From positions 18,912,501 to 18,976,500 of the forward strand of contig NC_135241.1 in the NCBI RefSeq assembly GCF_947623445.1: a DNA stretch of 64,000 nt, written 5' to 3'. This stretch comes from Clavelina lepadiformis (taxonomy: Eukaryota; Chordata; Ascidiacea; Aplousobranchia; Clavelinidae). Made by a program: the position numbers and the translations under genes. The notes under the pieces were generated by a model that was not told the DNA's origin, searched no databases, and worked only from the letters and a program-made list of their open reading frames with translations. Below are positions 1,884 to 63,976 of this stretch, one piece after another. The stretch's first letter is position 1. Each line of letters begins with the position of its first letter.

Positions 1884-4304
1884 TATGAGTGAAGTTTCTC
1901 CTAAAAACTGTACAACTGTGCCTACAAACAGTTCATTTAAGTAAAGTATGATATGACAAGGCAGGAGCTAATTATTATCAATAGTGATTTGATATTAATC
2001 TTCATTATATTTTGTCAAAGATGTTTTATAGAAACAACTGGAAAAAATATAAACTGATTTTAAGTTAAGACTGCATGATAAAGAAAAATTAAATTTTTTA
2101 AATTTCGATGGAATATTTTACAGACTCTCATTCAAAAATTGAAATGAGCATGCTATACAACTTTGACAAACATAATTTTTTCTAAAAAATTTTAGGATAT
2201 GCAACATATTTGGTATGATAGGCAGTCTTAAATCAATAACAATGTACCAAGTCTCACAAACACATTTTGACCAATGTACCAATAGATAATATGTTCTTCT
2301 ATTCTACCATAGTATACTAAAGCATATGTTTAAGTATATTATGAATGTTCCATCCGTCCAACAAATGTTATGGACTTTACTTTAAGTGATTTCTTATGTT
2401 TTGTTTTAAGATTTCCATGTCATCGGTAAAAACTTGTACGCTAGAATTAAGTGTGTAAATGTAACTTTTAATCCAATAAACTTAAACGATATGTTCCAAT
2501 AAAATATTTGTGTTAAACTTAATTTAATATAACTTTTTTTTTACACAATAGTTTTATATCTTTGTTTTCGTATGGTTATCCTTAATTTAATTATGAAGAA
2601 AACCACAGGTAACCAATCATTATGACTCTTATCTCCATGACAACAACATTGCAGAAAAACTTTTTGAAGGGGGCTAATTGGTTTTACCGCAATTCCTGTA
2701 AAGCGGTTGTTATCTATCAGCTTCATCGCGCATTTGTGAGTTTTTTTCTGAAAAAGTAGCTACAGTTTCTATATTAGTATAGTTACTGGTTTGTTTTAGC
2801 AAGAGCTAGCCTAGTTGGACTTTCGTAAACTAGCTTTTTAATCTACCAAATCAAACTGCTTCTTTGACAAGATTTAGCGTGTGCAAAAGATCGAAAGGCA
2901 CAATTCGAGTCCGCACGCACTGGCCGACAGGTGCATATTTTGATGTTTTAACAAGTCTCTGTACAGCTTTTTTGCCATAAAATTTGCAAAAATGCCTATA
3001 AATTTTACCAAAGTGCATAATCTGAAAATTATGCGCATTAATGCACCTGAAATGCGCTACTGAGTCTCAGGAAAACAGCACTTGAGTGTGCCTTTGCCAA
3101 ACTCTGCAAACTGGTCTATCCTATATGCCAAGAAAATGGCTTGCAAAACACGAACAGTTTTGCATAGATGAGATATATTTTTAACAACAATTACAACTCA
3201 CGCCAAAATAATGCAAATTAAGTAAAAATTGTGGTTGACTATTTCTACGTAGGAGAATATTGTACTCCAAAAATGGCATTTGCATTATCCACTAGCCGAG
3301 CCTAATTGCAGGAGTACAGTATTGCAGCAGACGTATTATACCATAGCTCCAGATATAAAATATTGTTTTTTGTATGGGTAGCAAGAATTCAGATGGGAAA
3401 ATTTGCTGGTTTCGGGTGAAAAATCCCCTGCGCTACAAGATGAAACAATAGGTATTATACGCACAATTAGTTTTTATCACCCACGCATTTAGCAAAGTTT
3501 CCAATCTGGGCAAGAATCATACATATTTAATGAAGCAGTTCTCAGATCTTAACTCTCATTTGCATGATGGGGTCATTTGCATGAGGTTTAAAAGAGTTGA
3601 CAATTGGACAAATTGACCAGTGTTGAACTGGCATTGAACCTAATTAAAATCACACTTTTTAAGGGTAATAGTAAGATAGTCTACGGCAGGGTTGTAACCA
3701 AGTCATTTTTTTCTCACTTGAGTCAAGTCAAGCCAGTGCCTTCACAACACTATTCTGAGATCACACTATGCGTTGCATTAAAGTGATTAGTATAATGTTA
3801 TGGCTGTCTAACACGGTGGAAAGCATGGCAACTGCATCCTCAAGATTTTTTTTGGTGCACCCGAATGTCTCCTTTTTTACCGCCAAAAAATAAGGCCCTT
3901 GGGCATTGTGTTTAGTCTATTGTTCATTGCAGACTGAAAATTGCACCTAGTCAACCATTTTGCACCAGGTCACCCTTATTTAGGTCGTTCTGCACCCCCG
4001 AGATCTTGTCAAAAAGTTCCATGCTTTTCAGCGTAGGCTGTCTAAAAACTAATCTGGTTGATACTTATGACAGAGATTTGTAATTGTTTAGAAAAACATA
4101 CGATTTTGTAACCTAAACTTGTCTTTCTTGTCCTCACTGTTGCCATAATGTGATTTGAGTAATTTTGGACGTTGACTCAATTCATCAAAAAACGTGACTC
4201 AAGTCACTACAACACTGGTCTATTGTACTTTATACTAATACAATTTTTAATTGAAGACTTGATTGCAGAGTTGATGTTTTAAAAGCATGCATGATTTAGG
4301 CAAT
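1884..4304. other. Intergenic region between KLHDC9 and calaxin
   Basis: This AT-rich spacer separates two divergently transcribed genes, so it should carry both promoters. Only short random-looking open frames were seen (for example 2541-2726 and 3604-3786), none resembling a known protein. The only structured part is the hAT-type element at 3687-4217. Confidence 0.6.
3687..4217. mobile_element. Non-autonomous hAT-type element (MITE)
   Basis: The left end begins CAGGGTTGTAACCAAGTCA and the right end, read inward on the other strand, begins CAGTGTTGTAGTGACTTGAG, giving imperfect terminal inverted repeats. Flanking 8-mers are GTCTACGG (3679-3686) and GTCTATTG (4218-4225), a 6/8 match as expected for an old 8-bp hAT target duplication. 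There is no coding capacity. A related copy lies at about 13379-13731, sharing an internal stretch around TAATTGTTTA and the CAACACT right end. Confidence 0.7.
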
Positions 4305-5934
4305 ATGAACAAAAAGAATCATAAAATAGCAGAAGAGTTATTTAAAACATCATCACAAAAGCACTGTGAGTACCTTTAATTTTTTATTACAACCATAAAC
4401 TCTTAATTAAATTTCTACAGTGAAAAGTAATAGTTTACTACACAAGAAGTTATGCACGGAATATTGTTAATAGTGTGAAGTTAATATGTAACAGTGTTCT
4501 ATTAACTGATATTTAAGAGTATCAATTTGAATCTAGTTAATAAAAATGAAGTGGAAGCCCTCATACATACATACTTCAGCCTTTTTGAAGGGGTAAAGAT
4601 GGATCGCAATCAGTTTCGTGACATTCTGCATGGAACATTCAACATGACAGAAGATTTATTAATGGACAGAGGTGAAATGGCATTGCTATTACAATTTCCT
4701 CATTAATAAAATATCTTTTAACTTAGTTAAAATTAGCAATGTTGAATCTTTAATATTTATAAGCTTGAGGGTTGTCAATTCATAGGGTCTTGGTTACATA
4801 TCTATAGTTTAACTTTTTAAATTTTTAGTGTTCAGAGCGTTTGACAAAGATAGTGATTCCTATATATGTCTTTCTGAATGGGTGGAAGGTCTTTCAACAT
4901 TTATAAGAGGCACCTTGGACGAGCGTATTGAATGTAAGATTGACTTATAAATTGCACTGATAACTAGGGAAAACTAAAGCCAATATTTATTTACAAACCA
5001 AACTGGTATCAGTACAACAAAACTTTTAATTTTAGATAGTTGTAAAGAACTTTTAAACCAATTTAATATATTAACCCAAAGAATGGTCAAATTTTTCTCC
5101 AGGTTTTTCCATTGTTAAGTGTATAATTTTCTTTAATGCTGCAGGATATATGCAGTATATTCGCTGCCCCAAAATACTTTTTACTTGTGTAATTTAGATT
5201 GTGTTCTACTGTTCTTACATCCTATCTTCCGAATTTGATTTAGTTAAAAAGTACTGGAATAAATGAAGGTACTCCTTTGAATTATCGTGCTTGTTAATTC
5301 AATACATAGCAGATGCACACATTTAATGATATTGTGAAGATAGAAAAGTGGTTGCTCAACTGAAAACATCTACATATTGTAACTTGTGGTACATAAAGAT
5401 TTTGAGTCCTGTAAAGGGAATCAAATTTAGAATATTGCTTATATTTTTTTTTCTATTCTGATTGAAGATGCATTCACTGTTTATGATTTGAATGGTGATG
5501 GTTATATTTCACGAGAAGAAATGTTTCAAATGTTGAAAAATTCTCTCGTAAAACAACCTACAGAGGAGGACCCAGATGAAGGAATAAAAGACTTGGTGGA
5601 GTTAACATTGAAGAAAATGGTTTGACTAAAGTTTTTTTTTCTTTCTGAGATGGATGATTAGGCACTACAACTAATGACATGCAATGATGTTACTTCAATA
5701 ATGCTCTCTTTCTTTCACTGGACTTTGTTTCTGTGCAGAAGCTGTTACAAAAATTAGCACTATTGTAATATTTTTTAACAGGATATTGACCATGATAGCC
5801 GCCTTTCTAAAGCTGACTTCGAAACTGCTGTGAAAACAGAACCTTTATTGCTGGAAGTATTTGGTCCTTGCCTTCCAGATGAAAAATGTGCAACTCTGTT
5901 TGAAGAACAAGTTTTCCATTCCAAAAAATTTTAA
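4305..5934 (+). CDS. CLXN: Calaxin (EF-hand protein, EFCAB1)
   Basis: Five exons: 4305-4365, 4537-4671, 4829-4933, 5468-5619 and 5782-5934; 606 nt, 201 aa (human 211). Three EF-hands are visible: [24 protein letters not shown] and [12 protein letters not shown], the last ending in Asp instead of Glu. The block [13 protein letters not shown] and the tail FGPCLPDEK are family hallmarks. Calaxin is a Ca2+ sensor of axonemal outer-arm dynein, studied in Ciona sperm, where it controls flagellar bending during chemotaxis; it also acts in motile cilia. The short first exon is placed by ATG at 4305 and a T|TT split Phe codon across the first intron. An AATAAG-like signal near 6020 may serve polyadenylation. 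Confidence 0.93.
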
Positions 5935-8900
5935 ATTGTAATACAGTACCGTAAAAGTGCACTTACTTCCATGTGTTTCGTGATGTTATATTTGTTGTTA
6001 TATGTTGTATTAATACAAAAATAAGGAAAAAACATTAAATTTGTTCTCAAAGGCTTAATGGTTCTTGAGACAACTTTTTATATAGCTTAAACCAACTTCA
6101 TCTTTATTGCAAAAGTTGTCAAAATTTATTGCGCCAAAATGGAAAATATTATCATTGTGACTTGATCATTAAATAGTGGGATAATATTGTAGTTTTACAA
6201 CATTTTGAAAACAAAGACTTGGATAGAACCATTCATTTGTGAAGATACGATCTGCTTTACCGAAAGAGCTTGCCTAGTATTTTGCTCGTATCACCTAAAA
6301 TGATGTGGTTATGTGACGTTTCTATAGGTGATAAGAGATTTGAGTGTTTATATATTACTGAGATGTGAAATATTTTGCGTTTGTACTGTTTAGAGTAAAA
6401 GTGTCAGCCGGCAAGCAAGCAATGTTTTTTTCACACAATACATTTGTGGTACTGTACCAATCATCATTGCTAAGTCCAGCGATCCATCAGGCGGTTTTGT
6501 ATTCGACAGTATTTCTTTACAGCTGTAGCCTGAACTTGGTAATATGACAAATTTTTTTGTTCGTTTGTGTATTACTTGTGTGAAGTATTACACAACAACC
6601 ATATCCGCCATAAAGACCGCGTACACTGGCGGCTGTTGTTAGGGATGAGCGAGGACGATTGATGGTTGATGACTTGTTTTACTTCTGCTTCGATGATATG
6701 AGTTCTCATTTCTCAAACGGCGTGACAATGCTGTTAGTTGCTTGATTCTGTCTATACAAATTACTAATTGATAAAGTTCCCATATTGTTTATTATAAGAC
6801 ACAAAGGTTTTCACCTTCGGGCAAAGCTTACTGAATGTTGCATTGCGCAGTAGTAACCAGTGAAATCGATCACGTAAAGGAAGGATTGCAAACATTACAT
6901 CGGTATATATATGGCACACCAGTTCAAGCGAGGTAATTTATCTGAACGTCATTAAGGAGAATTCAAGTCCGGTCAACAATTGAATTGCAAGATCCCAAAA
7001 TAAAATTCAACCATTTACAAAACAAATCGTGACGTAACCGTCACAGTACTGCACAGCATAGGCTTCAGCAGAACCACTGAAAAGGAGCAAGTGCGGTTAA
7101 TGCCTGATCCGAATTGCAATGCCACAACAGTTGCCGGAAACGTACATTAGTGTAGCTTACAGTACTTCACAAACAATTGCAAACTTTTATATCGAGTTGC
7201 CAGTGGGCTTTCGCTTTCTCCCTTTATGGTTTTCATTTTGGTGTCTATTTTGAGAGCGACTGTTTCATCGAAAGTAGGTCACACAGTCTCAGCACCGGAT
7301 TGACATGGCTGAGTGCCCTGGGGCTCAGCATTGGTGGGGGCCAATAATAAAACTATAATTTAAGCGCGCATGTGCCAAGTTTAGCTTTATGAACTACAAC
7401 ACCTTTTTGTAGATCTAATTAGACCAGACAGCTGCTGTTATTGTTCAATCAATAAAGAATTGCGCACCTAGTCTATATTTAGAATAACAGCGTCAGCTTG
7501 AAAATATCAAAATACCGATAACCATCACTGTAATTTTGCGTTAGTAAGTAAAACCGTAGATAGTTAACATACAGTGGCGCGTTGAGGGGAAGCAAAAGCT
7601 TAAAAATTGGTTTTAAATCTCCTGAGCTTGTCTTCCCCCCAAAAAACTTGTGATTTTTCGCTTCAAATACCGCTTTAAAATGCCTTAAACGAAATGTATT
7701 TTCATATCTTTATGTGGACAATACAGTAACCAAATTATAATTCCACTTTTGAGACGCCGTGTAGATTACAACATGCAAGGCCGCCAACATTGATTTTGAA
7801 ATGCTGTAAACCCGCCTGTTAATCTTATACGTTTTTCTGTGTAGGTTGGAGCTGATAAGAAGAGGTAAACAAGGAAATGCAATAAACAAAAAAGATTGAA
7901 AGCGTAAAAAGGCCTATGGTTTAAAGACGTTAGGTCCGTGAGGTAGTATGGCCCAATACCCCTCCTTAAATACACTAGTGTTAGCATAAAATAGTATTTA
8001 GGAGGGTAAATGACAGATTCCCGGAAAATGTTTTAAGATTTTGATGTTTTTCTGAGCAACAATTTTACGCCAATCTGCTGATATAGATTTGTCCCAAAAA
8101 TATTTAGAAAAGACCTATACAATTCATTAGTAGGCTCCACCACGATAACGTTAGTAGTATCAACGAAATTTTTATACTTTCTTGACCAATTATATTTTAA
8201 CAAAAAAATCTGGGCATAACTCTCTACGAAGCTTATATTACAAAGATGGGCAAACTGAGGGTCGCCGACATGTTTTTTGTAGCTCTTCTAGCTGAATAGT
8301 AACATCCATTATTATTCATTATCCATGCATTGTTTACGGTATTTGTACTGACACTACCGATTTTGCGGCTCGCTGGTGTTTGTAGTTTTCTACAAGTGAC
8401 TCTTTCATTGAACAAGTTTACCCACCACTGTTATATTGGGTAGGGACCGTAGCCGTACTCAATTTACGATTTTTGTAATGCCATTTCTTTTTAACATCTA
8501 TACTTTGGACAACGTGGTAACCGTATTTTACTTTTACAACTCGATCAAACAGTGAAGAACTCCGTATCTGCAACTGCAACGCTCAATTTGCATTGTTGAA
8601 AGTAGGTTCTTCAGAAATTTTCTCTCGATGCTTGATAACCAGAACAGCAAGCAATCTGTCGTGTTTCACGATCAGCCAATTATGTTCTTGACTTTAGTCG
8701 TTGTTTTACAAAAATTGCTGTCTGAAGCCTTCATGTCATAGCATCGTACTTAATATACAGTATTGCAGTGGTTATAATAGCAATATAATAGCCTATAGCC
8801 GATGAGGAGTCGCAAAAAAAGCAATGAACTAAACGACTTGGAAACACCTATGATCCCCAAAAATTGAATCCGTTATAGAAGGTCAATGTCCCGATTAAGG

Positions 8901-25011: not shown

Positions 25012-25557
25012 TTACTGGCTATTTGCACTTTCAACCTTTTCCAAAGAACATTCTTGGTTTTGTTCATCTTCATTTTCTGATGACTTACCAGAATCATCTT
25101 GGTCTTTAGAATTGTTTTTCTCGCCTTTCTTTTGTATTGCTTGCATTTTCTTCTTTCTACGAAGACGTTTTGCTCTTTTCTTGGCAGTAGCTTCTTCAGC
25201 AGCAATTTTGTTTTCCTCCCGCTTTTTCTGATATTCTTCGTCAAGTTTATGCTTTTTTTCTTGCTTATTAAGATAAGCTTGGCGGTTGTACTCTCTTCGT
25301 CTAATGTGTCGATACACGTGAAATTCTCCACTTCCAGCACCGGCACTCGAGCCCATTACATCACGAACAAACTCCGGCGCAGCCTTTGGTTTCCATTCTT
25401 TTTTTGGAGCAGGAATATAAGCTGGTTTGTCAGGATTACGCATAAGTTTCTCCACCTTCCATCTTTGTATGTCAGCAGCTGATTTGGGCACACTAACTTT
25501 TTTCTCCACTGCATTTGGGTCAACTTTTGCCTCATTTCGAATAGATGCATTATTCAT
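25012..25557 (-). CDS. PRKRIP1: PRKR-interacting protein 1 homologue
   Basis: A single uninterrupted exon, 546 nt, 181 aa (human 184). The family core is nearly intact: [19 protein letters not shown], then the invariant [20 protein letters not shown] and [10 protein letters not shown], followed by [12 protein letters not shown] and a long charged Lys/Glu-rich helix with a basic run that suits nuclear import. The protein is a component of the catalytic spliceosome, where its long helix contacts U2 snRNP; the name comes from inhibition of PKR. The start chosen is ATG at 25557, since the in-frame ATG at 25596 lies inside the coding end of the upstream gene. Only 10 bp separate this ATG from the stop of the MANBAL-like gene, so it has no promoter of its own in sight. 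Confidence 0.92.
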
Positions 25558-25567
25558 TGTTATTATA
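25558..25567 (-). promoter_or_regulatory. 10-bp intercistronic junction of an operon-like pair
   Basis: Between the TAG stop (25570-25568) of the MANBAL-like gene and the PRKRIP1 ATG (25557) there are only the bases TATAATAACA. In tunicates such spacing marks operons whose downstream message is made by spliced-leader trans-splicing. The AG of the TAG stop is itself a candidate acceptor. No separate promoter fits in the gap. Trans-splicing is inferred, not seen. Confidence 0.5.
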
Positions 25568-27026
25568 CTATCGCCTCTTTCGTAAAGACCTTGCACGTTT
25601 TGCAGAATTTGTCATTGAAATCGTTTCTTTTGAAGTCTCTTTCTCTTGTTTACAATTGCTCTCATTTACAGCTGTTGATGATTCGTGATGAAACGCAGCA
25701 CTGAGCAGACTAACAGCTACAGCAAGAATGCAAACAAATTGAAATATCCCACAGATTGACAAAACAAACGAAAGGATATTATCAGTTAATGTCTGTTCAT
25801 GTACATTAACAAACTCCGTATCAACCTTATTCATACCTGAAATAAACCTTGACAGTAATGACCAAAGCATATTACATAAATTAGAGATGAAATAATGCTA
25901 CGTAATCATAGTTTATATGCAAACTTTCCAATCAGGCCAAAGATCACTCAATTACACAACAAACAATCAGTCAACTGAACATGTATGACTTTTCACTTAT
26001 TTTTCTCAAACCTTAGATGTTCCATACAAATGTAATGTTTGACACATTGTATAAAGTGTCTGGAAAGTTTTGCATAACTAAGGATCAATAACCTAATCGG
26101 CCACAAAGAGCATAAAAAGTGTTACATACTGGTACAATAAAACAGATGTAGTTACTACATAAAATAAATAAACAACTTTTGTCAAGAGTGTATAAAAGAG
26201 CTCTATGTTAACATCTGTTTAAATCTCCTGCGTGCAGCTGCCACACTTTCAGCTGTGGCCTATGTTTCTTCTTTAAATTTTAATGGAGCTAGCTTTTCTG
26301 TAATTTAGTGGGTTTTTTTAGTAGTTTTTTTAACCACTTTTGCTTTTCACACTTGGGTCTGAATTATGTGGTGGAGCTAGTGCACAAAAAAGGTCTACTA
26401 TGGAAAAATGACTTGAACATTACTTGATGTCTATGAAAAAGTAGGCTACAGCCAGATTGAAGAGTATGGCAGTTTTTCTTAGAGATCTCGGGTGAGCAGA
26501 AGCAAAATGCTGGTGTGCACTGTGACTCGTAATCCAAGGCTGCCCGGAGTTTGTGGAGGCAAGGTGCGGCCCTATACAATAGAAATCCGGGAAAAAAACA
26601 GTGTCTCCCGTTTTTTTTTTTAGAGACGACACCGGTTTGCCCTGGAGTGCAATACCGTTTTGGAAAAATAATCTCGGGTGTGCTCTTGCCATACTCTGCA
26701 GTATGGAACTACAGTATAGGATACATTTGATATATATATTATATACCAATTATATAATACCTTTATGTACCAATTTAAATCAAATATATTAAAATAAAAT
26801 ACTTAACTAGCAATTTTCCACCCTACTGCTATTTACCTTTGCAATGAGAAATAAATTAAGACAATATGCATGGGACGTGACGACAATCTTTCTAATTTAA
26901 CTGCACGCAACAATAGAGTCAAATAATTCAACAGGTAAATTAAGTTAATATACCTTCACAAGTCAAAAGGGTCTCCTCAGAGCTTGGCTGCATCTCGTCA
27001 GTAAATTTACATTTTCGCTTAGCCAT
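25568..27026 (-). CDS. MANBAL-like (UPF0239) small membrane protein
   Basis: Two exons, 27026-26954 and 25836-25568; 342 nt, 113 aa. The join restores a Gly codon (G|GT). Exon 2 encodes a hydrophilic leader ending [11 protein letters not shown], a single hydrophobic segment rich in Ile, Val, Cys and Ala (about residues 44-70), then a polar tail ending SLRKRR. The pattern NxLxxxLxxxxIFQxxCxLAxxV followed by a basic C-terminus resembles MANBAL, a small membrane protein of unknown function; this match is from memory and modest. Human MANBAL is about 85 aa, and the first exon here adds 25 residues ([12 protein letters not shown]...). An internal Met at the start of exon 2 could be an alternative start. 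It is the upstream partner of PRKRIP1. Confidence 0.6.
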
Positions 27027-42925: not shown

Positions 42926-45900
42926 ATGTCGATAATATGCAAATATCTTCTGTGTCATGTTTTGATTGCGATGATGATGATGATACACACCCTGGGTGGA
43001 GTGCTCTCGTCCCCGGCGTCTTCATCCAACTTACCCAGAACTAATGTTGTGGAAATAGACATCCCGGGGGTTGTAAGTAAAATTTTATCCATTTTTAACT
43101 ATATAAATATTTGGACCATGTCTAAATTCTTTAAATTGTTTAAACGATAAAAACGTTGAAAATGTTGCTTGTTTGAAAATACTTCTGTTTATGCAGTTTC
43201 ATATGCGGTGAATGTTATAATATAAGGTTTATTTATAGTTAGGTCTGAAATTTTATATAACAGATATATGTTCTATAAGGGTAAAAACATGAATTTTGAA
43301 ATTACATTTTGGTTAGACTTTATTGGCGATTTTTCAAGTTACTATTTCAATACAACAATTGTTTCCAACTCAAACTTCAAAAAATAATATTGAATTACTT
43401 CTGTATTAGATTATAGCGTTGTTACGGCAATAAAAAAAGATTTTTTTCATTTATAGGTAACGTTACCTGTTTTTGAACCTCAAATTTTCAAACTTTGATA
43501 CCAAGCATTCGACCCAAAATGACTGTTTGAAAACAAACGATTATTTCATTAATTACAAATGATTCAGGACAACCACAAAATTAGCTGGTCATAAAACAAA
43601 CTATAAATATTCAAACGATATAATCCGATTTAAATTTCCGATAAACTTTCACATATAGGTTTATTACGGCGTGTGCTCGGAGGTAATTGTAGGACCGCGA
43701 GACAAATGATCCACTCTGGCATATAAATTTTTGATAAATATTATCTTGAGTTGAAACTTTTCAAATATGCTTTGAACTATCAAGTAGATCTTCTCATATC
43801 CGGACTAATGACTAAGCGTTGAAGACCATATATGGGGTATGAACACCAAACTTTGTGTTGGTAAACAAACCTTGTCGGGTTAGGCACAAATGTTTGTTCC
43901 TGCTGTCTAGGAAAATAAATCGACAAATTTTAGTCTAAACCAATATTGCAGTAAACTGTCTTTGGAAAAAGCTTATTAAAAGCAAATAGCCTACACGTAA
44001 TGTTGGAATTATGTTGCCCACTGTCATTGCCTTTGAAGTAAAGTAGATGTAGCTTAAAATGCCGCCATCAAATCAGCAAACCTAAAACGCAAGTTATTTC
44101 ATCAATCCATGCGTGGTGTTCATTATTATATAGAAGCAAGAAACGTGATGCGGCAATCCATGTGAAAAATATAGCTTTATTCGTGATATTTTGGGAACGT
44201 TAGGTTTGTTCCATGACAAAACTGGCAATGTCGCAAGCTGTATAGGTAACAAAAATAACAGACATGTGAAAATTAATGTAATACTAGTTTTTATCCGATT
44301 GATGTGATCAGGACGTTGCCAGTAGATAAAATTCAATCATTGCCATCGTTTGTGTAATTGAAGGAAGCTTTGATATTTAAAATTTTGCTTGATCATTTGA
44401 CTAATTCAGAAAGCACAAAATGACTCAGAGAGTTGCGATTCACACAGGGCAAGGCGATAAGTGGTTTACTCCGACAGTCACTCCACGTGTGAGACGATGA
44501 CTGTTCGTAATTATCACAACAATACATTAAGATAACGGATATTAAAAACGGTAAGCCATCAAGAATCCTAAAAAATTCAAAAATCTGACACGTTCCGAGT
44601 GTACATGGCGTGTAGAGGACATGCCATAATCTCCTGACCACACCAACGAATGGGTTTAGTCAAGACGGAATTTTGTTATGTCATTCGTGTTCAGCTGCTT
44701 GGAATAGTGGTCGGAGAAATATCACTTCCGATGATCACAAACGTCATTGTTGAGATCAATGATAACAATCTAATTACAACTCGTCACTGATGGTTTTTGA
44801 AGTTGCGACTTTTAAGTTGCTTTAACAAGTAAACGCGTCTGTCAGCTTACCCTGTTACCGCAGTTGGACAAGTAGGATAAGCAGAATTAGTCATCATACA
44901 ACAGCAGGTGGTGGCCACAGTGAGCGGTTTTAGTTGGCCAGGAGAGTTATTTAGAATGTGTTTTTAGTGCTTGCTTGTATTTGTGTTAAATCTGGCAAAA
45001 TATCACATATGTTTTCTGTAAGTAAGTTGTAGATATTTTGTTTCACAGGATATACCAACCTGCAATGAAATACGATGCACAGGCCAGGGCTACGTTTGCC
45101 GAGATAATGATGGTGTGGCGTCTTGCATATGCATTCCTGACTGTCCGTTACCTACTGTCCGTGGCGAATTTATTTGCGCTTCAGACAACCAAACTTACTT
45201 CAACCGTTGTACAATGAACAAGATGGCATGTGAAAAGGAGATTGAGCTTCACGAAGTGGAATGCAACATTGTTCACCACGCCGACACGTCTTCAGGCAAC
45301 CAGCAGCCGTATGCGCAATCCATAACCTTTCAGTTAACTGTGCAGGTCGGTATGCAAGCGCGCTTGCCGTGTGAGGTAGGCGGCGACCCAAGACCAACAA
45401 TTCTCTGGAAGCGAGAAGGAACCGATGACGACCACATGTCTGCAGGATTTGCTAGGGGCCGGAAATCGGTTACGGCCGACGGTACATTGGTGATATCCTC
45501 TGCCCTTGCCATGGATGCCGGAACGTACATTTGCCTTGCTTTTAATAGACTGGGATCAGTAAAGCTGCCTTTTACCCTTGTTGTGCGAGGTCAGTTATGT
45601 ATAAAGTTATCTTTAAACCCACTGTAGAAATGTTTCAAATTACAGATACTTCAAGACAGCAAATGTAAAAAAAACATAATTTACTAACGATATCGATGCT
45701 GTTTTTAAAAAGGTCACCATCATATCAGATCAGGGTTTGTCAACAAAGAACTAACTTACGACCAAAAGTGTGTCGAAAATATCACGTTTCAAGCCAAAAA
45801 TTGCCGAAAGAGGTGGAATCACCGTCGTGCGCTCGGCTACTGGATACATAACCCATCAAGCGGCCGATGCGAGGAAAATTATTTTAGGGACTGCGAAACC

Positions 45901-46918
45901 ATTTACAATAAGGTGATCAGAAATTACGTGACTGACAGCAGCTTATAAGTTACCGAGCGATTTCATTAACTTGTTTTTTGTTTTGTAGTACACAACCAAA
46001 AAAGAATGTGAAGAGACTTGTACAGATGAGTGTCAAATGCCACCTGCAACTGGCGGGTGCAACGATTTTAGTGCACGAATTTTTTACAATAAAACCTCAA
46101 TGGAGTGTGAGGTAAAGAAAAATTTTCCAGATTTTAACAATTATAAAAGATTTTCGCGTCTTCGTGGAAGTTATATGAGCAACGTAAGCTAAGATACACA
46201 AGCAAAACACAATATAGTTTTCCGACATGACCCAAAATACTTTGTTAACTTTTAGGCCTTCCCGTACAGTGGGTGTGGTGGAAATGGCAACAACTTTCTC
46301 TCAACTCAAGCTTGCAGACAGCGATGCAAAACACCTAGGATATCATCGGCACCAACGAAACCGGCATGCCCATTCTGCAGTCAACATATGACAAAGAAAT
46401 ACTGCAGGTCTGATTTTGTAATCCAAGCAAGGGTGTTGCGCATATTCACAAATGTTGTGGATGACACGCAGATGATGAAAGTGCGAATTACCTACGTTTT
46501 TAAAGACGACCTATTAAACCTAGGCTTGTCGTTATATGATCTTTCTGACCCAAGCGACTCAGAGCTTACGCTTGAGGTACACCTAGACAGCCAATGTCCA
46601 TGCCCGGACATTACAAATCACTTGCCAAGGCCTAGCGATACAAGTTTTAGTGGTACGCGTTCAAATAGCTATCATTGTAGTCTCGACTACCGTAGACACC
46701 CGGGGAGCAGAAGTTTGCATTTAGACGATTCCCATTGTGTTGAACTTATCATATCGGGTGTAATACGCAATGGATATGCTAGCATTGTGCAAGGAAGTCT
46801 CGTCGTTCCAGCATCGGACACGAATATCGCAAGAATGACATCAAATACAGTTTGTAGTGGTATTTGTAGTATTTTTCAAAAAAACGGTCCGACCATTGGG
46901 CCAATATGCGCGCATTAA
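42926..46918 (+). CDS. WFIKKN-like secreted multidomain protein
   Basis: Five exons: 42926-43072, 45049-45589, 45713-45912, 45989-46111 and 46256-46918; 1674 nt, 557 aa. Domain order: signal peptide (1 to about 27), follistatin/Kazal (about 52-121, with CASDNQTYFNRC), Ig (about 140-229, DAGTYICLAFN), Kunitz 1 (Cys249-Cys307), Kunitz 2 (Cys311-Cys361, SGCGGNGNNF), netrin-like NTR (from Cys375, YCRSDFVIQARV). This is the WFIKKN1/2 order, and those proteins bind myostatin and GDF11 and carry inhibitor domains. The N-terminal WAP domain is missing: exon 1 joins directly to the Kazal exon, and I saw no cysteine-rich WAP exon in the 2-kb intron. Kunitz 1 has a 21-residue second loop instead of 15; Kunitz 2 has canonical spacing but Asn at the P1 site. 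AATAAA at 47425-47430 lies downstream. Confidence 0.85.
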
Positions 46919-54377: not shown

Positions 54378-55369
54378 TTCATAATGGTGTAGGTGTGGGC
54401 CCAGGAGTGGGTAAAACTCAGTTTGGGCACCAGGGTAGGATCACTCTTTGTCTGACTTCTCATCTTTGGTCGTTCCAGCATAGTTGGACTTGGCTGGCAG
54501 CGCCCTTAGAATCCTTGAGGTACTCAAGCCCCGGCACGACGGCAACGTGGTGATGCTGAGCGCCAGGGACAGCAAACACACTGAAAATGTGGCGCAGAAA
54601 TTGAAAACCAGGAACTCGATCCTGAAGAAACTTACTGGAACAACTTGGGGTGCTCACCAAACCACACTCAGAACATCAGCCTTGGCACTCTGCTATAGCG
54701 TAGCAGAATACTGTGCGCCAGTATGGGAACGCAGCAAACACACAGATAAAATTGACATTCAACTCAATAATACTATGAGAATTCTCTCAGGCTCCTTACA
54801 ACCAACACCCAAGATCTGGCTTCCAACCATGGCAGCAATAGCTCCACCACACCTCCGAAGACAGGAAACCACCCAACGGATTCACGACCAAATTGATGAC
54901 CTGCTCGACGACATTCCACTCCGCCAAGTCACTCAAAATGCACCTACCACAAAGCGATTAAAAAGCCGCAAACCTTTCTATAACTCATACAACAGAAATT
55001 TCGATATGCAAACAGCCTGGAAAACCTACTGGCAAAAACACAAACCCGTTGGAGCAGATACGATAACCGATCCCACGAAAGCACTACCCGGTTTCTCAAC
55101 AGCCACACGAAAAATGTGGTCCACGACAAACAGAATACGATCAAGACAGGCAAAAACAGCTTCAAACCTAAATCGATGGGGCTTACTCGACTCCCCAACA
55201 TGCAACGAAGCCCCCCAAGATATCGACCACCTCGTGTTAAAATGCCCCAATACTAAGTTGACTGGAGGCTACAGCACCGTCAATCAATGTGGCCAAAACT
55301 TCAAAAACTGGATTGACAATATGATGGTGTACGTGTGAAGACTATACGACGATGATGATGATGATGATG
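54378..55369 (+). mobile_element. 5'-truncated LINE with (GAT)n tail
   Basis: An uninterrupted frame (about 54484-55338, 284 codons) encodes the C-terminal part of a non-LTR reverse-transcriptase polyprotein. It has the post-catalytic region (AEYCAPVWERSKHTDKID) and a terminal Cys-His motif, CNEAPQDIDHLVLKCP, typical of Jockey/I-like LINEs. The 3' end is a GAT repeat and not poly-A. A 12-bp duplication, ATTAAGTTTGTT, flanks the insertion at 54366-54377 and 55370-55381. The first 100 bp inside the duplication show no coding similarity and may be an inverted or foreign 5' piece. The open frame and perfect duplication mean a young but dead-on-arrival copy. Confidence 0.82.
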
Positions 55370-56307: not shown

Positions 56308-56760
56308 CATACGTGTCAAACTCCCGGCCTGCGGGCCACATCCGGCCCGCTTTACAATAAAACTTGGCCCGCAATGTTATTGTACAGTATAACTTACTTT
56401 TTTCAAGCAAGGAACAAAATTATAACAAATCGCACAATACAGCAGTTGCCCCACCATATGATAGAATAAACAGATTTATTCTAACGTTTGTAATCTTGGC
56501 TGCTTTTTTCTTTATTGTTTGTTAATTCTTTAATGCTTTTGCAAGGAGGTAAATGAAACATAATGACGTAAGAGAAGAATAATAAAAAATAGCCCAGTTA
56601 AAAATCGTCAAAACCATCAAAAATTTGGAGTTGTTTTGCTGCCTGTTCTAATTCATGTACTCGTGTCACAAAACGTTCAATCAAGTTTTATCTTTACAGC
56701 CCGCGGCGTTAAATAAGTTTTGAGTTTTGGCCCCTGGTGCGATTGAGTTTGACACCCCTG
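56308..56760. mobile_element. hAT MITE with CAGGGGTGTCAAAC-type ends
   Basis: The left end reads CATACGTGTCAAACTCCCGG and the right end, reversed, CAGGGGTGTCAAACTCAATCG. GC-rich blocks (GGCCCGC) lie just inside both ends. Flanking 8-mers are GCCTAGTA (56300-56307) and GCCTTGTA (56761-56768), a 7/8 match. This end sequence is widespread among animal hAT MITEs. No coding capacity. Confidence 0.85.
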
Positions 56761-58124: not shown

Positions 58125-61100
58125 ATGAAGCTGATAGTGTATTTCATTGCATCAGTGGTCCTAAGTGTGGCTAGCACTCAAGGTAAGCGATTAGTATCTT
58201 TTTTGCTAAGTAAATTCAAACTGAAGATGTTTGCACACGACGATGTTTGAATGCTGGAAAAAGTTAAAAGCCTAAAAGAGTCCAACTGAACTGGCATCAC
58301 TTTGTGTTTAGAATCGCATCTAATTAAAGCAGTTTTAGAAGACATAGAATTTAAATCAAAGAAAGTGACAGGACACATTCCTAATTTTCATCAATATGAA
58401 TACGACGATTTTATTTCACCCCCTACTACCATTGTTAACGGCAGATTCGACATGTATTCAGTTGGAAATGAGGTACATTTAAAATTTTGAAAACTATTAA
58501 AACTGCTGTATGTAGGCTAAATGTTGTTAAATTTACAATTTGTAGGTAGCATTCTGGCAAGGAAATTCCCGCCCAACAGTCTTGATATACGGAGAAACAT
58601 ATTCGTAAGCGGCTGTTTGATTGTTTTCTAAATATTTCTTTCATGTGAGACCTCTAACTAACTAACTAGGCTAATTATCCTATAGTCTACTGACAACAAG
58701 TTGCTGCATTCAAATTGGCTTTGTTTCAGTTCCGATGATTATACATTAGCAAGCGCGGCAATTTATCCTTTTACTGTATTAACATGGATCAATAATCTCA
58801 GACGAGACAATCCTTACATTCTTCAGGTTGGTGCAAATAGATCGCAAGTTGCGACTTTATTGACCAGCAATCTGAGTCGTTATATTTGTAACAGACAAGG
58901 TCATTTACTGGGTATAACCATGAGGCCACAGACGAAACATTTCGGGGGATGCTCGCCGTTGAAAATTATCAACTTACATATCAAGTCTATCAGATATCAG
59001 GCGCCATTCCAAATCCTTCAATATGCGAAGTCTTTTTCTTGATAGAAAATCGAAAGGTACACTCGCAATACATGGCCCATTTGTTAATAAATACCAAAGT
59101 TATACGCTGCTGTTTATTTTGTCTATTAGTATGTTTAGTATAGCCTATAGTGCAGGACTGGTCAACCCGCGGCTCGCGAGCCGCATGCGGCTCTTTGCCT
59201 GGTATTATGCGGCTCTTTCGTTCATATTGAACCTTCGAAAGAGAGCACATTTTACCCATTTTAGGCAGATAAACAGAAAAGTAATCTCTACTGGCTAATG
59301 TTCAATTGATATTTGCTAAATAATGACTGATTACATCAGATTTCGACCCAGAATAAAGATGATGCAACTGAAACAATATTTCATGCACTATTATGACGTA
59401 ATAAGAAAAAAACGTCATAAATGATAATGTGTATGATGTGGCTCTTTGCGGTTAAAACAGTATAGAATGAGGCTCTTAGTCTCTGACTGGTTGGCCACCC
59501 CTGCTATAGTGTCTACTATCGTTTTTTAAATTACAAACGTGGGCTACAATAAAAGACAATATGTGTATTGTAAGTATAGGCTTGGAATTCAGTTTCTATC
59601 GACACGTTTACTCTACTGCCCACTGGTTATCCGCCATTCACAATTACCAACACAGTCAAGTTGGAGTCAGACCAGCAAAACGTCATGCTCGGCTATACTT
59701 TATATTCAAAGTAATAACGCACTTAGTCGATTAACATGAATATCTAAAGGATATATTTAAAGATACCTTTAGCCAATTAATACAATCTTAGGCTGCTATT
59801 AAACTGATGTAAGTTAGATATTAATAAAATGTTAATAACATTGTCGGCATATAATTATATGTAAATATATGATAATGATTAATAATTATAATTATTACTC
59901 ACACAGGGCCAACGGTCTGGGTGTGACACAATCCGAAGTGTGGGCAGCTTTAAACGAAACTCTTGCTATTATCTCATTAAGTGATTCGCCAAATCGTGAG
60001 TGTTAATCATGTTTAAAATTATTTATAACTTTTATATATATTTTGTTACTTTGTTTATGTAGACATCAAATTCAGACTTCACCTTTCTGCCTTTAATCGT
60101 ACAACCAGACCCACCATGAATTAGCCTCATTAAATTCCTTTTACAAGCTTTAATGAAAAGGTTTTTTTCTTCAATTAAAGTTGAAATTCTTTTGTGATGA
60201 TTATCTAGGTCGCCCAACTCCATCACCGACTCCACGCTACAGACCGGCCAAAAGTTAGTAATTTCCATGGTGGTGTCTCTTTGCCTTCGTCCATGTATAA
60301 ACATATCACTCTCTACACTCATACATCCCAAATAGAATATACTACCGTATATAGAAAAATTTTTGCATTTTTTTACTTTTGAAGCATTAAGGGTGGAAGA
60401 AATTATGGCACAAATTGATAACGTGGCAAAAAATATCATTGCGGTAATACCGTTCTGGTACAGTTACGAGTACGATACAGAGAATAGTGAAATAGAAGAC
60501 GGTGGGAATGACCTATATGATTTTGGAAACAGGGTATAATTGTATGTAATAGATATACTGTAAAGCGAAAACAGCTCATAAAACCATTGTACAACAGCGT
60601 ATTTGCTTTTTAAGGTGCGTTTCAAGAAGAATCAAGAATTATATTTGCGAGCAGTTTACAACCAAGTGTATTAGTAAGTTAAATATTCATCTATCAGAGT
60701 TTTGATTTGTATTGAACTTTTAAATTTGTAGTATACCTCATTTATGTAAGCTATAAATTTATAGTTTATAATTGAGGTATAAATATACCAAACCAATTCG
60801 CTATGATTTATACTGTACTGAACCAGTTTTATACTATAAACAATTAGCTTAAACTGTAATTATGCTAAACCACTGTGTTATAAGCTTTCCAGAATTTCAG
60901 TTTTTTACTCGTACCATTTATCCATTCACTGCGCTAATGTGGATAGAAAACGCAAACGGGACACAATCGTCATTCACCTTGCAGGTATAGAATAATTGAA
61001 TTATTCCTTTGAGAACTCTTGCTTTTCTCAATATATCTAAATTTGCCCAACTTTTAAGGTTGACGGCAACGTTGGGGCAGATCAAGATGGTGGAATAACA

Positions 61101-63976
61101 TTGTACAGTGCAACCAAATATGAAATCGGAAAATTTGTTCTTTCATACAAAGTTTTTCAAATACATTCTGCCGAAGATCCTAGCGTTTGTGAACTTTACT
61201 TCACTGTCTCCTCAGAACAGGTTTGTATATATATATATATAGGATTTATGGACACAACTTGTGTCTGCAATCTCAACGGGAGATAGGCCTATAATTACAG
61301 TACTTTCCATGACCAAAAAACTTGTGGATCTTAACTTAATGTTTGTTGGTATAGTCTATATAAAAGCAAAGCAGTTTGTACAACTACTGCGTGCAATTTA
61401 CTGCCATAGTTATATGCAAAATGAGCCCCTTCTGCAATTTCTTTTTGTGCAGACATGGCAATCTGGAGGAGAATATGCTTTTCAAGTCGTTTCTTTCAGC
61501 GATGAGACTGATGAAATTGTAAATAGCGTTAAACTGTCCGGTCGCCCTCAAAATATTTTGTTAGGGTATATGCTGTTGTCCAAGTAAGATTAATATATAT
61601 AACGCTGACTAATAAGCATTTTGTAACCATTATTCTCATAGAATAAATTGTCTTATTTGAACGTCATCAGGCTTGAAGGTGCCGTAATTACTGAAAAGGA
61701 AATTCGTCAAACTTTGGCTGCTATGGTATCGGGATTTGGTACGATTACATGCTTTTGCCAAATATGGATATTGTTATGTTCTTACTACAGTACTAAATAT
61801 CGAATCCATTTTTATTTTTTCAATCTCTAGATTTACGTTCAAACCTGTCTCCAACACGAAATACAGTAAATATTTTTTTGTAAATTATTTTACTTAAAGG
61901 GAGTGTTATTGTATTTCGAGCAATAGTTTACACGTTGATATGCTGGAAATGATTACCACCTATTCATATAAAATACCTATTGCTCCGCAAAAATTTCGGT
62001 ATAGGCCAACTCACCGTAAAAAGTATGCATATATTAATCACTGTAAAAATCTATAAATCGTATCAAAACGCAAAATAATTTTAGGTGGAAACGACGCCTA
62101 TCACCCGGATACCGGATCCGAGTATTACTGGACTCCTAAGCATGATGCATTATTATAACTCGTCAGGTACAGAATATGACGCATCTTTTTTCATCTCTCT
62201 TGACACTGCCAATTTAAGATAAAGAATATATTAAGATACAGTACTAGATATATCAAAACTCTTGTTACTATACATTTTAGGAGATTCTGCTTTGGAAGAA
62301 ATTGCTTTCCTGTACGAATTCGCCGCAGAACGTATTAGGAAATGGGTAATTCGATCATGGTATCAATATCAATACGACGACTTGGCTGACCCCGAAAATT
62401 CAATTGTCAATGGCGGTCATGACCTTTACAACATTGGAAATCAGGTTTCAAGTCCATGAATTCATTTAAAGTAATTATACAAAATAGATGTGTTAATCTG
62501 AGTTAATTTTTATTTTTTACTACGAAATATAAATAGAAACTATAAAATTTCATGTTTTAAAAAGATTTAAATCAAAAACTTTAGTTCATTTTCTTCGAAG
62601 ACAGCATGCCGCCCATACTCGCCCAATACGACTATATCTACAGGTGTGAACAAAGCTATCTTTTGAGCGTGTTTTACATTTGCTTACCACAACACGTAAT
62701 CGTGAGTTGCTTATGATTTCATAGCAGTTACAACAACCTGGTGGTATCACTTTCCCCAGATTTCGAAACTACGACGCGATTGCCAGAACTACTTATCCAT
62801 TTGTGGGCCTCATATGGATAGAAAACCCGGATGGATCCAACCATTCCTACACAATACAAGTGAATCAAGTTTTTTGATTCATGTGTAGCCTGTAGCCTAC
62901 AATTGTACATCTAATTTATCGTTGCCACGTATTTTACGATGAAGCTTTGTCGCATTTATGAAATACTTAGGTCAGAATCTGCGATCGTCATCATCATAAT
63001 CATTTCAAAGAAATGCATATTACAATAGATTTTTGAATACCTATATTGCTGACATAATTTGCAGGTCAACAGCATTTTCGCTGGAAGTGAAAGATCTTTG
63101 GCAATCATCAACGGCTCGCTTACACAGGACAAGTTTAGAATGAGATTCTGGAGTTATCAAATCTACTCAACTGCTGATGATTTAAAACCAAGTATATGCG
63201 AAGTCTACTTTACAATCCACCACAGACAAGTATAGGATGTGTTGTTACTATATAAGTTGTCACTATATTTCACCGGAGAAAAATCGTACGTTGAAAACTA
63301 TTTTTCATGATTTCTTGTTAACCCAACTTAAATGTTACAATTAAAACATAGTAACCTAAATTCTCATTCTAATCTAAATTTAATTAACTTCAGTTAAACC
63401 CTAGATAGCTTAAATCGACTTTTTACATATTCATTCTCCTAGCCCAGGGATTTCCAACCTGCGGCCCACCTGAGATTTTTGTGAGGCCCGCTAGTCATTT
63501 TCACTACAAAAGTATGTACTTCATGTACCCATTTTTCTTGAAATTTAATAGGTTTTGCGGCCCATTCAATTATTTCAAGTGACAATGCGGCCCACTATAA
63601 TAAAAGGTTGGACATCCCTGTCCTAGCCTAACCGGTAACAGCCTATCTATAACTATAGGCTGCGTGACCTATAGGCTACTGACGGTGAAATGGTCACTGC
63701 TCTATTATATACTGTATTATTATAATTGTAACTTGTGGGTTAATAGCTTGTAGCTCGGTGTAGGCCTATTTCTTTGCTCTATTGGACCAGTATTGCAAGG
63801 TTTTTCGGATGAACAGAAATGCTTTATTCTAGAAATTTATTTTACAAGATATGGAATACTAAAGGGCGCTATCGAACTGACTTCAAGTTTTCATCGTCCC
63901 CATTGTCTGCTTCTAACGTATTCATGGTGACCGGCAATCCACAAAACGTTTTGATGGGATACATGTTATTATCAAA
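58125..63976 (+). CDS. Modular secreted repeat protein (3' end outside window)
   Basis: Twenty-two exons joined by hand, giving at least 746 aa: 58125-58182, 58312-58472, 58546-58604, 58730-58826, 58895-59056, 59580-59710, 59907-59995, 60063-60098, 60209-60253, 60385-60533, 60615-60673, 60885-60984, 61059-61220, 61453-61583, 61671-61738, 61831-61865, 62085-62166, 62281-62444, 62585-62643, 62760-62859, 63065-63229 and 63849-63976. The 19-residue first exon is a signal peptide (MKLIVYFIASVVLSVAST). Three homologous modules follow, separated by Pro/Ser/Thr-containing linkers. I do not recognise the protein. The motif around DGGNDLYDFGN and DGNVGADQDGG recalls uncharacterised secreted proteins of marine invertebrates, from memory only. 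No membrane segment is seen, and N-glycosylation sites (NET, NGT, NHS) are present. The linker exons are the least certain. Confidence 0.72.
58312..59710 (+). repeat. Module 1 of the modular secreted protein
   Basis: Five exons of 161, 59, 97, 162 and 131 nt. Landmarks: YEYDDF, IVNGRFDMYSVGNE, VAFWQGN, IYPFTVLTWINN, NPSICEVFF and QQNVMLGYTLYSK. It contains one cysteine in the PSICEVFF motif. Intron 4 is only 68 bp. The last intron holds the MITE at 59153-59503. Confidence 0.75.
59153..59503. mobile_element. hAT MITE inside an intron
   Basis: It starts CAGGACTGGTCAACCCGCGG and ends TGGTTGGCCACCCCTG; the ends are inverted repeats with CGGCTCTTT-type blocks inside. It is flanked by a perfect 8-bp duplication, CTATAGTG (59145-59152 and 59504-59511). 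It lies in the intron between exons 5 and 6 of the modular gene. No coding capacity. Confidence 0.9.
60385..61583 (+). repeat. Module 2 of the modular secreted protein
   Basis: Five exons of 149, 59, 100, 162 and 131 nt. Landmarks: YSYEYDTENSE, DGGNDLYDFGNR, IYPFTALMWIENANG, VDGNVGADQDGG, DPSVCELYF and PQNILLGYMLLSK. The acceptor of its third exon was placed at 60885, because only this one keeps the frame and gives the same 15-residue spacing to TYPF/IYPF as in modules 1 and 3. Confidence 0.75.
62281..63976 (+). repeat. Module 3 of the modular secreted protein
   Basis: Five exons of 164, 59, 100, 165 and 128 nt. Landmarks: YQYQYDDLADPENSIVNGG, HDLYNIGNQ, TYPFVGLIWIENPDG, KPSICEVYFT and PQNVLMGYMLLSK. 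The gene continues past the right edge: the last exon ends at a GTAATG donor with no stop. A MITE (63445-63620) sits in its last intron. Confidence 0.75.
63445..63620. mobile_element. Small hAT MITE inside an intron
   Basis: It starts CAGGGATTTCCAACCTGCGG and ends AAGGTTGGACATCCCTG, near-perfect inverted ends with GCGGCCCA blocks inside. A perfect 8-bp duplication, TCCTAGCC, flanks it (63437-63444 and 63621-63628). At 176 bp it is the shortest element in the window and probably fairly recent. Confidence 0.92.

Follow-up and report, generated by a model that had tools for sequence, protein, structure and literature searches.

The window analysed here, a 64,000-nucleotide stretch of chromosome 2 of the ascidian Clavelina lepadiformis (G000:C2:18912501-18976500), contains near its right end a gene built from three copies of a domain that is named the DGG domain in this analysis. 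As judged from sequence, the spliced gene model is real and its three modules belong to one domain family, which has no entry in the copies of Pfam, NCBIfam and PHROGs searched. Relatives, all intronless, occur in environmental phage contigs and in bacterial genomes; that these and the ascidian modules form one homologous family can be held with high confidence. The explanation that best accounts for the data overall, and that appears reasonably probable, is a secreted protein of 759 residues in which three DGG domains would serve as extracellular recognition or adhesion units.

Gene model and module architecture

Twenty-one exons between positions 58125 and 63976 on the forward strand, all bounded by GT-AG, together form an uninterrupted reading frame of 734 codons (Table 1). 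Exon 22 (window coordinates 64130-64205, G000:C2:18976630-18976705), which is exon f of module 3, begins 130 bp past the window end and contributes a further 25 residues and a TAA stop; the gene therefore ends with three modules. Extension to the right, proposed in the preliminary description as the way to count modules, thus caps the gene at three. A search of the next 23 kb gave no additional a, c, d or e exon and only two isolated weak b-like matches. The full product has 3 cysteines and 6 N-x-S/T sites and is probably secreted; the ATG exon at 58125 encodes a signal-peptide-like sequence (hydrophobic stretch judged by eye).

The preliminary description saw modules of five exons with conserved lengths and phases. 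The lengths are right in the three modules (b 59/59/59, c 97/100/100, d 162/162/165 and e 131/131/128 nt; exon a measures 161/149/164 nt) and the identical phases are borne out, exons a to e being 1-0, 0-2, 2-0, 0-0 and 0-2 in 3/3 modules. Each module consists of six exons instead of five, the supposed first linker exon (59907-59995 and 61671-61738) being part of the domain, because this exon f matches the stretch that follows the LLS motif in phage and bacterial members, a helix in both structure models, and lifts the phage-profile scores. With exon f added, modules 1, 2 and 3 rise from 19.2, 51.5 and 26.8 to 28.5, 65.2 and 37.8 bits against a phage-only profile, beating all 20 shuffled exons in each case; against a bacteria-only profile, the gain is 3.5 bits for module 1, 6.5 for module 2 and nil for module 3. 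Segments resembling exon f follow the e exons at other loci (by eye). Among the motifs described as shared, YPFxxLxWIxN and PSxCExxF occur three times, strict DLYxxGN occurs twice (D[LM]YxxGN three times) and strict QNVxLGYxLxSK only once, its relaxed form QN[VI][LM][LM]GYxLxS being found 3 times in the gene.

The chance control consisted of splice-bounded candidates of the right phase and length from both strands of window positions 1-56000 (a 357, b 851, c 493, d 252, e 307), scored with profiles built from the other loci, the window gene left out. The best controls reach 4.6 (a), 5.9 (b), 5.2 (c), 3.9 (d) and 5.7 (e) bits, against 44.8-59.4 for the a exons of the gene, 18.5-47.6 for c, 43.3-65.5 for d, and 29.0, 69.2 and 42.8 for e in modules 1, 2 and 3. 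The b exons, at 7.2-11.8 bits, exceed their best control narrowly, and exon b is therefore the weakest part of the gene model. When the window gene is included in the profiles, 3/851 controls reach the b threshold and none reach the other thresholds. For exon a of module 3, an acceptor three bases later (62284, frame unchanged) scores slightly better, 46.9 vs 44.8 bits.

The domain family in the Clavelina genome

Protein searches of the genome (209.06 Mb in 95 contigs) with three different modules all lead to one set of 11 loci, located on contigs 1, 2, 4 and 8, with at least 65, 53 and 67 exon matches for the three queries (E up to 10, 1 and 1, respectively). At least 25 modules emerge from a phase-aware exon search, of which 19 have the full set of five exons and 6 are partial. 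Because this search required the phases, it is by construction that they are constant at other loci; the matches are nonetheless strong. Duplication of whole multi-exon blocks, which had been read from the gene itself, holds family-wide in the genome (25 modules, 11 loci). Within this gene itself it is only a possibility, as the modules are pairwise 29, 35 and 29% identical over 196-197 positions and do not group together in the tree, their places there being not settled. Elsewhere the locus pairs C1b/C2b and C8b/C4a correspond module by module (Shimodaira-Hasegawa-like approximate likelihood-ratio test, SH-aLRT, 89-99), a pattern suggesting joint duplication of two-module blocks.

Ten pieces adjoining modules at the paralogous loci were scanned against Pfam and 9/10 matched. 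CUB domains are present at C2a, C2b and C1b, in pieces lying between two same-strand modules, sushi domains at C2b and C4a, and VWD, TIL and Mucin2_WxxW domains at C8b; Fibrinogen_C is matched at C4c with E 5.5e-5, no single stretch passing alone. The pieces at C1a and C4b may be intelectin-like, the former having no Pfam match.

Relatives in phages and bacteria

An alignment of 16 ascidian modules identified 9 relatives among 164 candidate stretches in IMG/VR. An alignment of 7 of the phage-contig relatives (A2) in turn found 58 among 182 candidates in IMG/VR, some contigs repeating, and 27 among 125 in bacterial genomes; 54 of 73 in a further scan are relatives, mostly from the same contigs as before. 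By record title, the bacterial relatives belong to nine groups: Bacteroidota, Verrucomicrobiota, Planctomycetota, Gracilibacteria, Zixibacteria, Krumholzibacteria, Eisenbacteria, Chloroflexota and Cyanobacteria. With relatives in phages and bacteria, the domain is therefore not an orphan. The homology extends over its whole length: a phage-only profile recovers 17/19 ascidian modules, including all three of the window, and no decoy passes. Module 3 is missed by the bacteria-only profile.

Phage versions are intronless, many in open reading frames (ORFs) of 265-390 residues and others in ORFs of up to 1,243. Bacterial copies are found in ORFs 464-4,051 residues long, some of them truncated by contig ends. 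Pfam scans of 7/27 bacterial proteins show Ig_7, HYR, HYDIN-like Ig, TIG and T9SS sorting domains. Three queries gave no match in annotated phage records, and the phage context therefore rests on IMG/VR contigs. There, ten ORFs adjoining phage copies were scanned against PHROGs, of which 6 matched and 4 did not. Neighbours on contigs L075 and L101 match head-tail adaptor, virion structural, baseplate wedge or tail fibre families, and the neighbour on L083 has one weak virion structural match (E 5e-4); some of the matched ORFs hit families of unknown function only. We infer a tail location that is not general, since the copy on L058 adjoins replication-like genes (by eye). Two phage-contig arrangements were also noted: the 1,243-aa ORF L079:6471-10199 has a Laminin_G_3 domain together with a DGG domain, and the adjacent, slightly overlapping ORFs L101:3287-4165 and 4144-6057 have one divergent DGG domain each.

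The view that the domain belongs to no named family has held: nothing significant was matched in Pfam-A, NCBIfam, PHROGs or PDB sequences, and the strong match to a described family that the preliminary description had named as grounds for refutation did not appear. Neither the 734-aa protein nor module 2 matches any Pfam-A family, 16 modules scanned singly give 5 weak families (best E 0.024), and three phage proteins give one sub-threshold match (E 0.13). Among the Pfam stretches listed for the 7 bacterial proteins and L079, none covers the domain, nor does any NCBIfam or PHROGs model among those listed, PHROG matches having E 0.11 or worse. Profile searches of PDB sequences reach E 0.81, 1.4 and 0.14 at best. 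Literature searches found no paper for the motif strings DGGNDMYD and DGGNDM, though the domain may be published under another description, and none on a phage-tail domain family horizontally transferred to metazoans. Sequences of the DGGNDMYDGGN type presumably occur in other invertebrates as well.

Predicted fold and conserved loops

Structure models of one phage member (predicted template modelling score, pTM, 0.86) and one bacterial member (pTM 0.83) agree in a fold of helix, beta-sandwich and helix. Foldseek searches of PDB gave no match below 1e-3 for either model. A weak likeness, at 3-11% identity, exists to domains of the 'supersandwich' class in sugar-acting enzymes; among the 50 matches listed per model carbohydrate-active enzymes prevail, and the periplasmic domain of E. 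coli YidC is also present.

Two loops, IxDGGxDMxDxGN and GADGxG, carry four acidic residues that are intact in 27/27 phage-type, 31/33 bacterial-type and 14/19 ascidian rows of the alignment. All four are present in module 2 (which has Leu for Met, and GADQDG as the second loop). Modules 1 and 3 each retain a single one of the four Asp; at the fourth position module 3 also has a Glu. A similar division is noted at C1b and C2b (L043, L044), where the first module has all four acids and the second has lost acidic loop residues. Paired D/G loops of this kind point to a metal-binding site, with calcium the probable ligand.

Proposed function and alternatives

That DGG domains occur in phages as well as in large bacterial proteins of surface type makes an extracellular role in sticking or recognition probable. 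The protein would present three tandem DGG domains of ~200-225 residues each, with short linkers between, every domain being a non-enzymatic recognition or adhesion unit in which a beta-sandwich is closed off by N- and C-terminal helices. The two loops would form the metal site, most likely for calcium, and hold a ligand-facing surface, probably for glycans; the only hints of glycan binding itself are the accompanying domains and the weak resemblance in fold. Of the three modules in the window gene, the second would bind the metal, while modules 1 and 3, with most acids lost, could be spacers or bind differently. This functional assignment, with module 2 as a metal-dependent copy, is tentative, its chances lying a little short of even. 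The CUB, sushi, VWD/TIL, mucin WxxW and fibrinogen-like domains at paralogous loci suggest blood, gut mucus or tunic as the site of action.

Several observations would suit a protein of the tunic, gut or egg coat that is purely structural, a component of matrix or mucus without a specific ligand, in which repeats give length and stiffness: the modules are in tandem, there are 3 cysteines in 759 residues, the acids are lost in modules 1 and 3, and the paralogous locus C8b has VWD, TIL and mucin WxxW pieces. The single-domain phage versions, many of ~265-390 residues, and the strict loop conservation across phages and bacteria suggest a specific site instead, and leave a structural role fairly unlikely. 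The same loss of loop residues might mark the window sequence as a decaying or unexpressed gene copy, which is highly improbable given 22 exons with intact splice sites, an open frame of 759 codons, and YPF, PSxCE and GYxLxS retained in all three modules.

The conserved acids and the dominance of carbohydrate-active enzymes among the listed fold matches could also point to a domain that is or was a sugar-acting enzyme, the acids being catalytic and the fold the beta part of a glycoside hydrolase, phosphorylase or polysaccharide lyase. However, the matched parts of these enzymes are mostly non-catalytic sandwich domains, YidC stands among the same matches, no catalytic helical barrel is attached to the DGG domain, the conserved residues lie in D/G-rich loops of metal-site type, and 5/19 ascidian modules have at least one of the four acids changed. 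An enzymatic origin or function is thus distinctly unlikely, and an extracellular recognition or adhesion unit remains the preferred reading of the DGG domain.

Evolutionary history

The ascidian modules form one clade (SH-aLRT 100). In a quick tree they were nested in phage diversity; this placement was set aside, as a tree constraining the 27 phage-type rows together is better by 19.4 log units (p value of the approximately unbiased test, p-AU, 0.84), so that the root, the nearest group and the direction of transfer are not fixed by the data. Two motif states are distributed unevenly: DPSxC occurs in 16/27 phage-type, 10/19 ascidian and 0/33 bacterial-type rows, and LLS in 21/27, 17/19 and 1/33, respectively. 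These states liken the ascidian to the phage type but may be ancestral retention. Gains of genes by ascidians from bacteria or phages have been proposed for cellulose synthase and rusticalin (PMC6339383), and by this precedent, which is no evidence here, gene transfer into an ascidian is plausible.

A wider scenario is speculative and, taken whole, unlikely. A Clavelina ancestor would have acquired a receptor-recognition domain in use at phage tails and bacterial surfaces, which gained introns and multiplied to 25 modules or more within secreted proteins of pattern recognition or mucus. Animals and phages would then read the same class of surface glycans through one and the same unnamed calcium-dependent domain. 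With its conserved loops and consistent fold models, the DGG family spans phages, the nine bacterial groups and one chordate. Defining it would let annotators name proteins that are currently uncharacterised. Both for phages and for large secreted proteins of bacteria the domain supplies a candidate adhesin, and it is a possible new case for microbe-animal exchange of extracellular domains.

Features of the gene and its surroundings

Table 1. Exons of the three-module gene inside the window (window coordinates)
Feature	Length (nt)	Phase	Position	Strand	Remarks
Exon 1			58125..58182	+	Start codon and signal-peptide-like sequence MKLIVYFIASVVLSVASTQ; hydrophobicity by eye
Module 1, exon a	161	1-0	58312..58472	+	N-terminal helix (inferred from relatives); degenerate DGG loop NGRFDMYSVGN
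Module 1, exon b	59	0-2	58546..58604	+	
Module 1, exon c	97	2-0	58730..58826	+	
Module 1, exon d	162	0-0	58895..59056	+	GADGxG loop lost
Module 1, exon e	131	0-2	59580..59710	+	
Module 1, exon f	89	2-1	59907..59995	+	Domain C-terminal part (helix in phage and bacterial models)
Linker exon			60209..60253	+	Pro/Arg-rich (RRPTPSPTPRYRPAK)
Module 2, exon a	149	1-0	60385..60533	+	Loop intact IEDGGNDLYDFGN
Module 2, exon b	59		60615..60673	+	
Module 2, exon c	100		60885..60984	+	
Module 2, exon d	162		61059..61220	+	Acidic loop GADQDG kept
Module 2, exon e	131		61453..61583	+	
Module 2, exon f	68	2-1	61671..61738	+	Domain C-terminal part
Linker exon			61831..61865	+	
Linker exon			62085..62166	+	
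Module 3, exon a	164	1-0	62281..62444	+	Or start 62284; degenerate loop IVNGGHDLYNIGN
Module 3, exon b	59		62585..62643	+	
Module 3, exon c	100		62760..62859	+	
Module 3, exon d	165		63065..63229	+	GADGxG loop lost
Module 3, exon e	128		63849..63976	+	

GC-rich, partly palindromic stretches lie in introns of the gene at 59150-59510 and 63440-63620, and also at 56310-56760 (e.g. GCGGCTCGCGAGCCGC); by eye, those inside the introns resemble short DNA-transposon ends. Elsewhere in the window, ORFs at 45022-46915 (+) match Kazal, I-set Ig and Kunitz domains consecutively, an order resembling that of WFIKKN-type protease inhibitors. An ORF at 25015-25611 (-) matches DUF1168 (E 2.6e-44) and is presumably PRKRIP1-like. 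A 284-aa open frame at 54484-55335 (+) with a sub-threshold zf-RVT match (E 8e-4) is possibly a decayed piece of a non-LTR (long terminal repeat) retrotransposon. About 5 kb downstream (L033, near G000:C2:18982015) there is a long, apparently intronless ORF resembling a tandem-SH2 tyrosine kinase (by eye).

Comparison with known systems

Only two BFVD entries are matched by the phage model below 0.001 in Foldseek, both viral and without function or family: A0A8S0HZG8 (E 1.7e-16, 27% identity, TMq 0.77) and the uncharacterised A0A6J5PYY2 of an uncultured Caudovirales phage (E 1.0e-8, 19%). The supersandwich (galactose mutarotase-like) domains of the glycoside hydrolase (GH) families GH65, GH94, GH116, GH92 and GH63 and of lyases, and the YidC periplasmic domain, show a weak likeness in fold; in contrast to the enzymes, the DGG domain has no attached catalytic domain and has distinct DGG and GADG loops. 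The CUB, sushi, VWD/TIL, WxxW and fibrinogen-like modules of animals adjoin or separate DGG modules elsewhere in this genome, at paralogous loci, but are unrelated to the DGG domain in sequence, and Pfam finds none in the window gene. Rusticalin of Styela rustica offers a parallel in another ascidian. As described there (PMC6339383), its C-terminal domain resembles MD and L-alanyl-D-glutamate peptidases, and is a different domain from DGG, yet it too is an ascidian protein with a domain like bacterial and phage proteins, for which phage-mediated transfer has been proposed.
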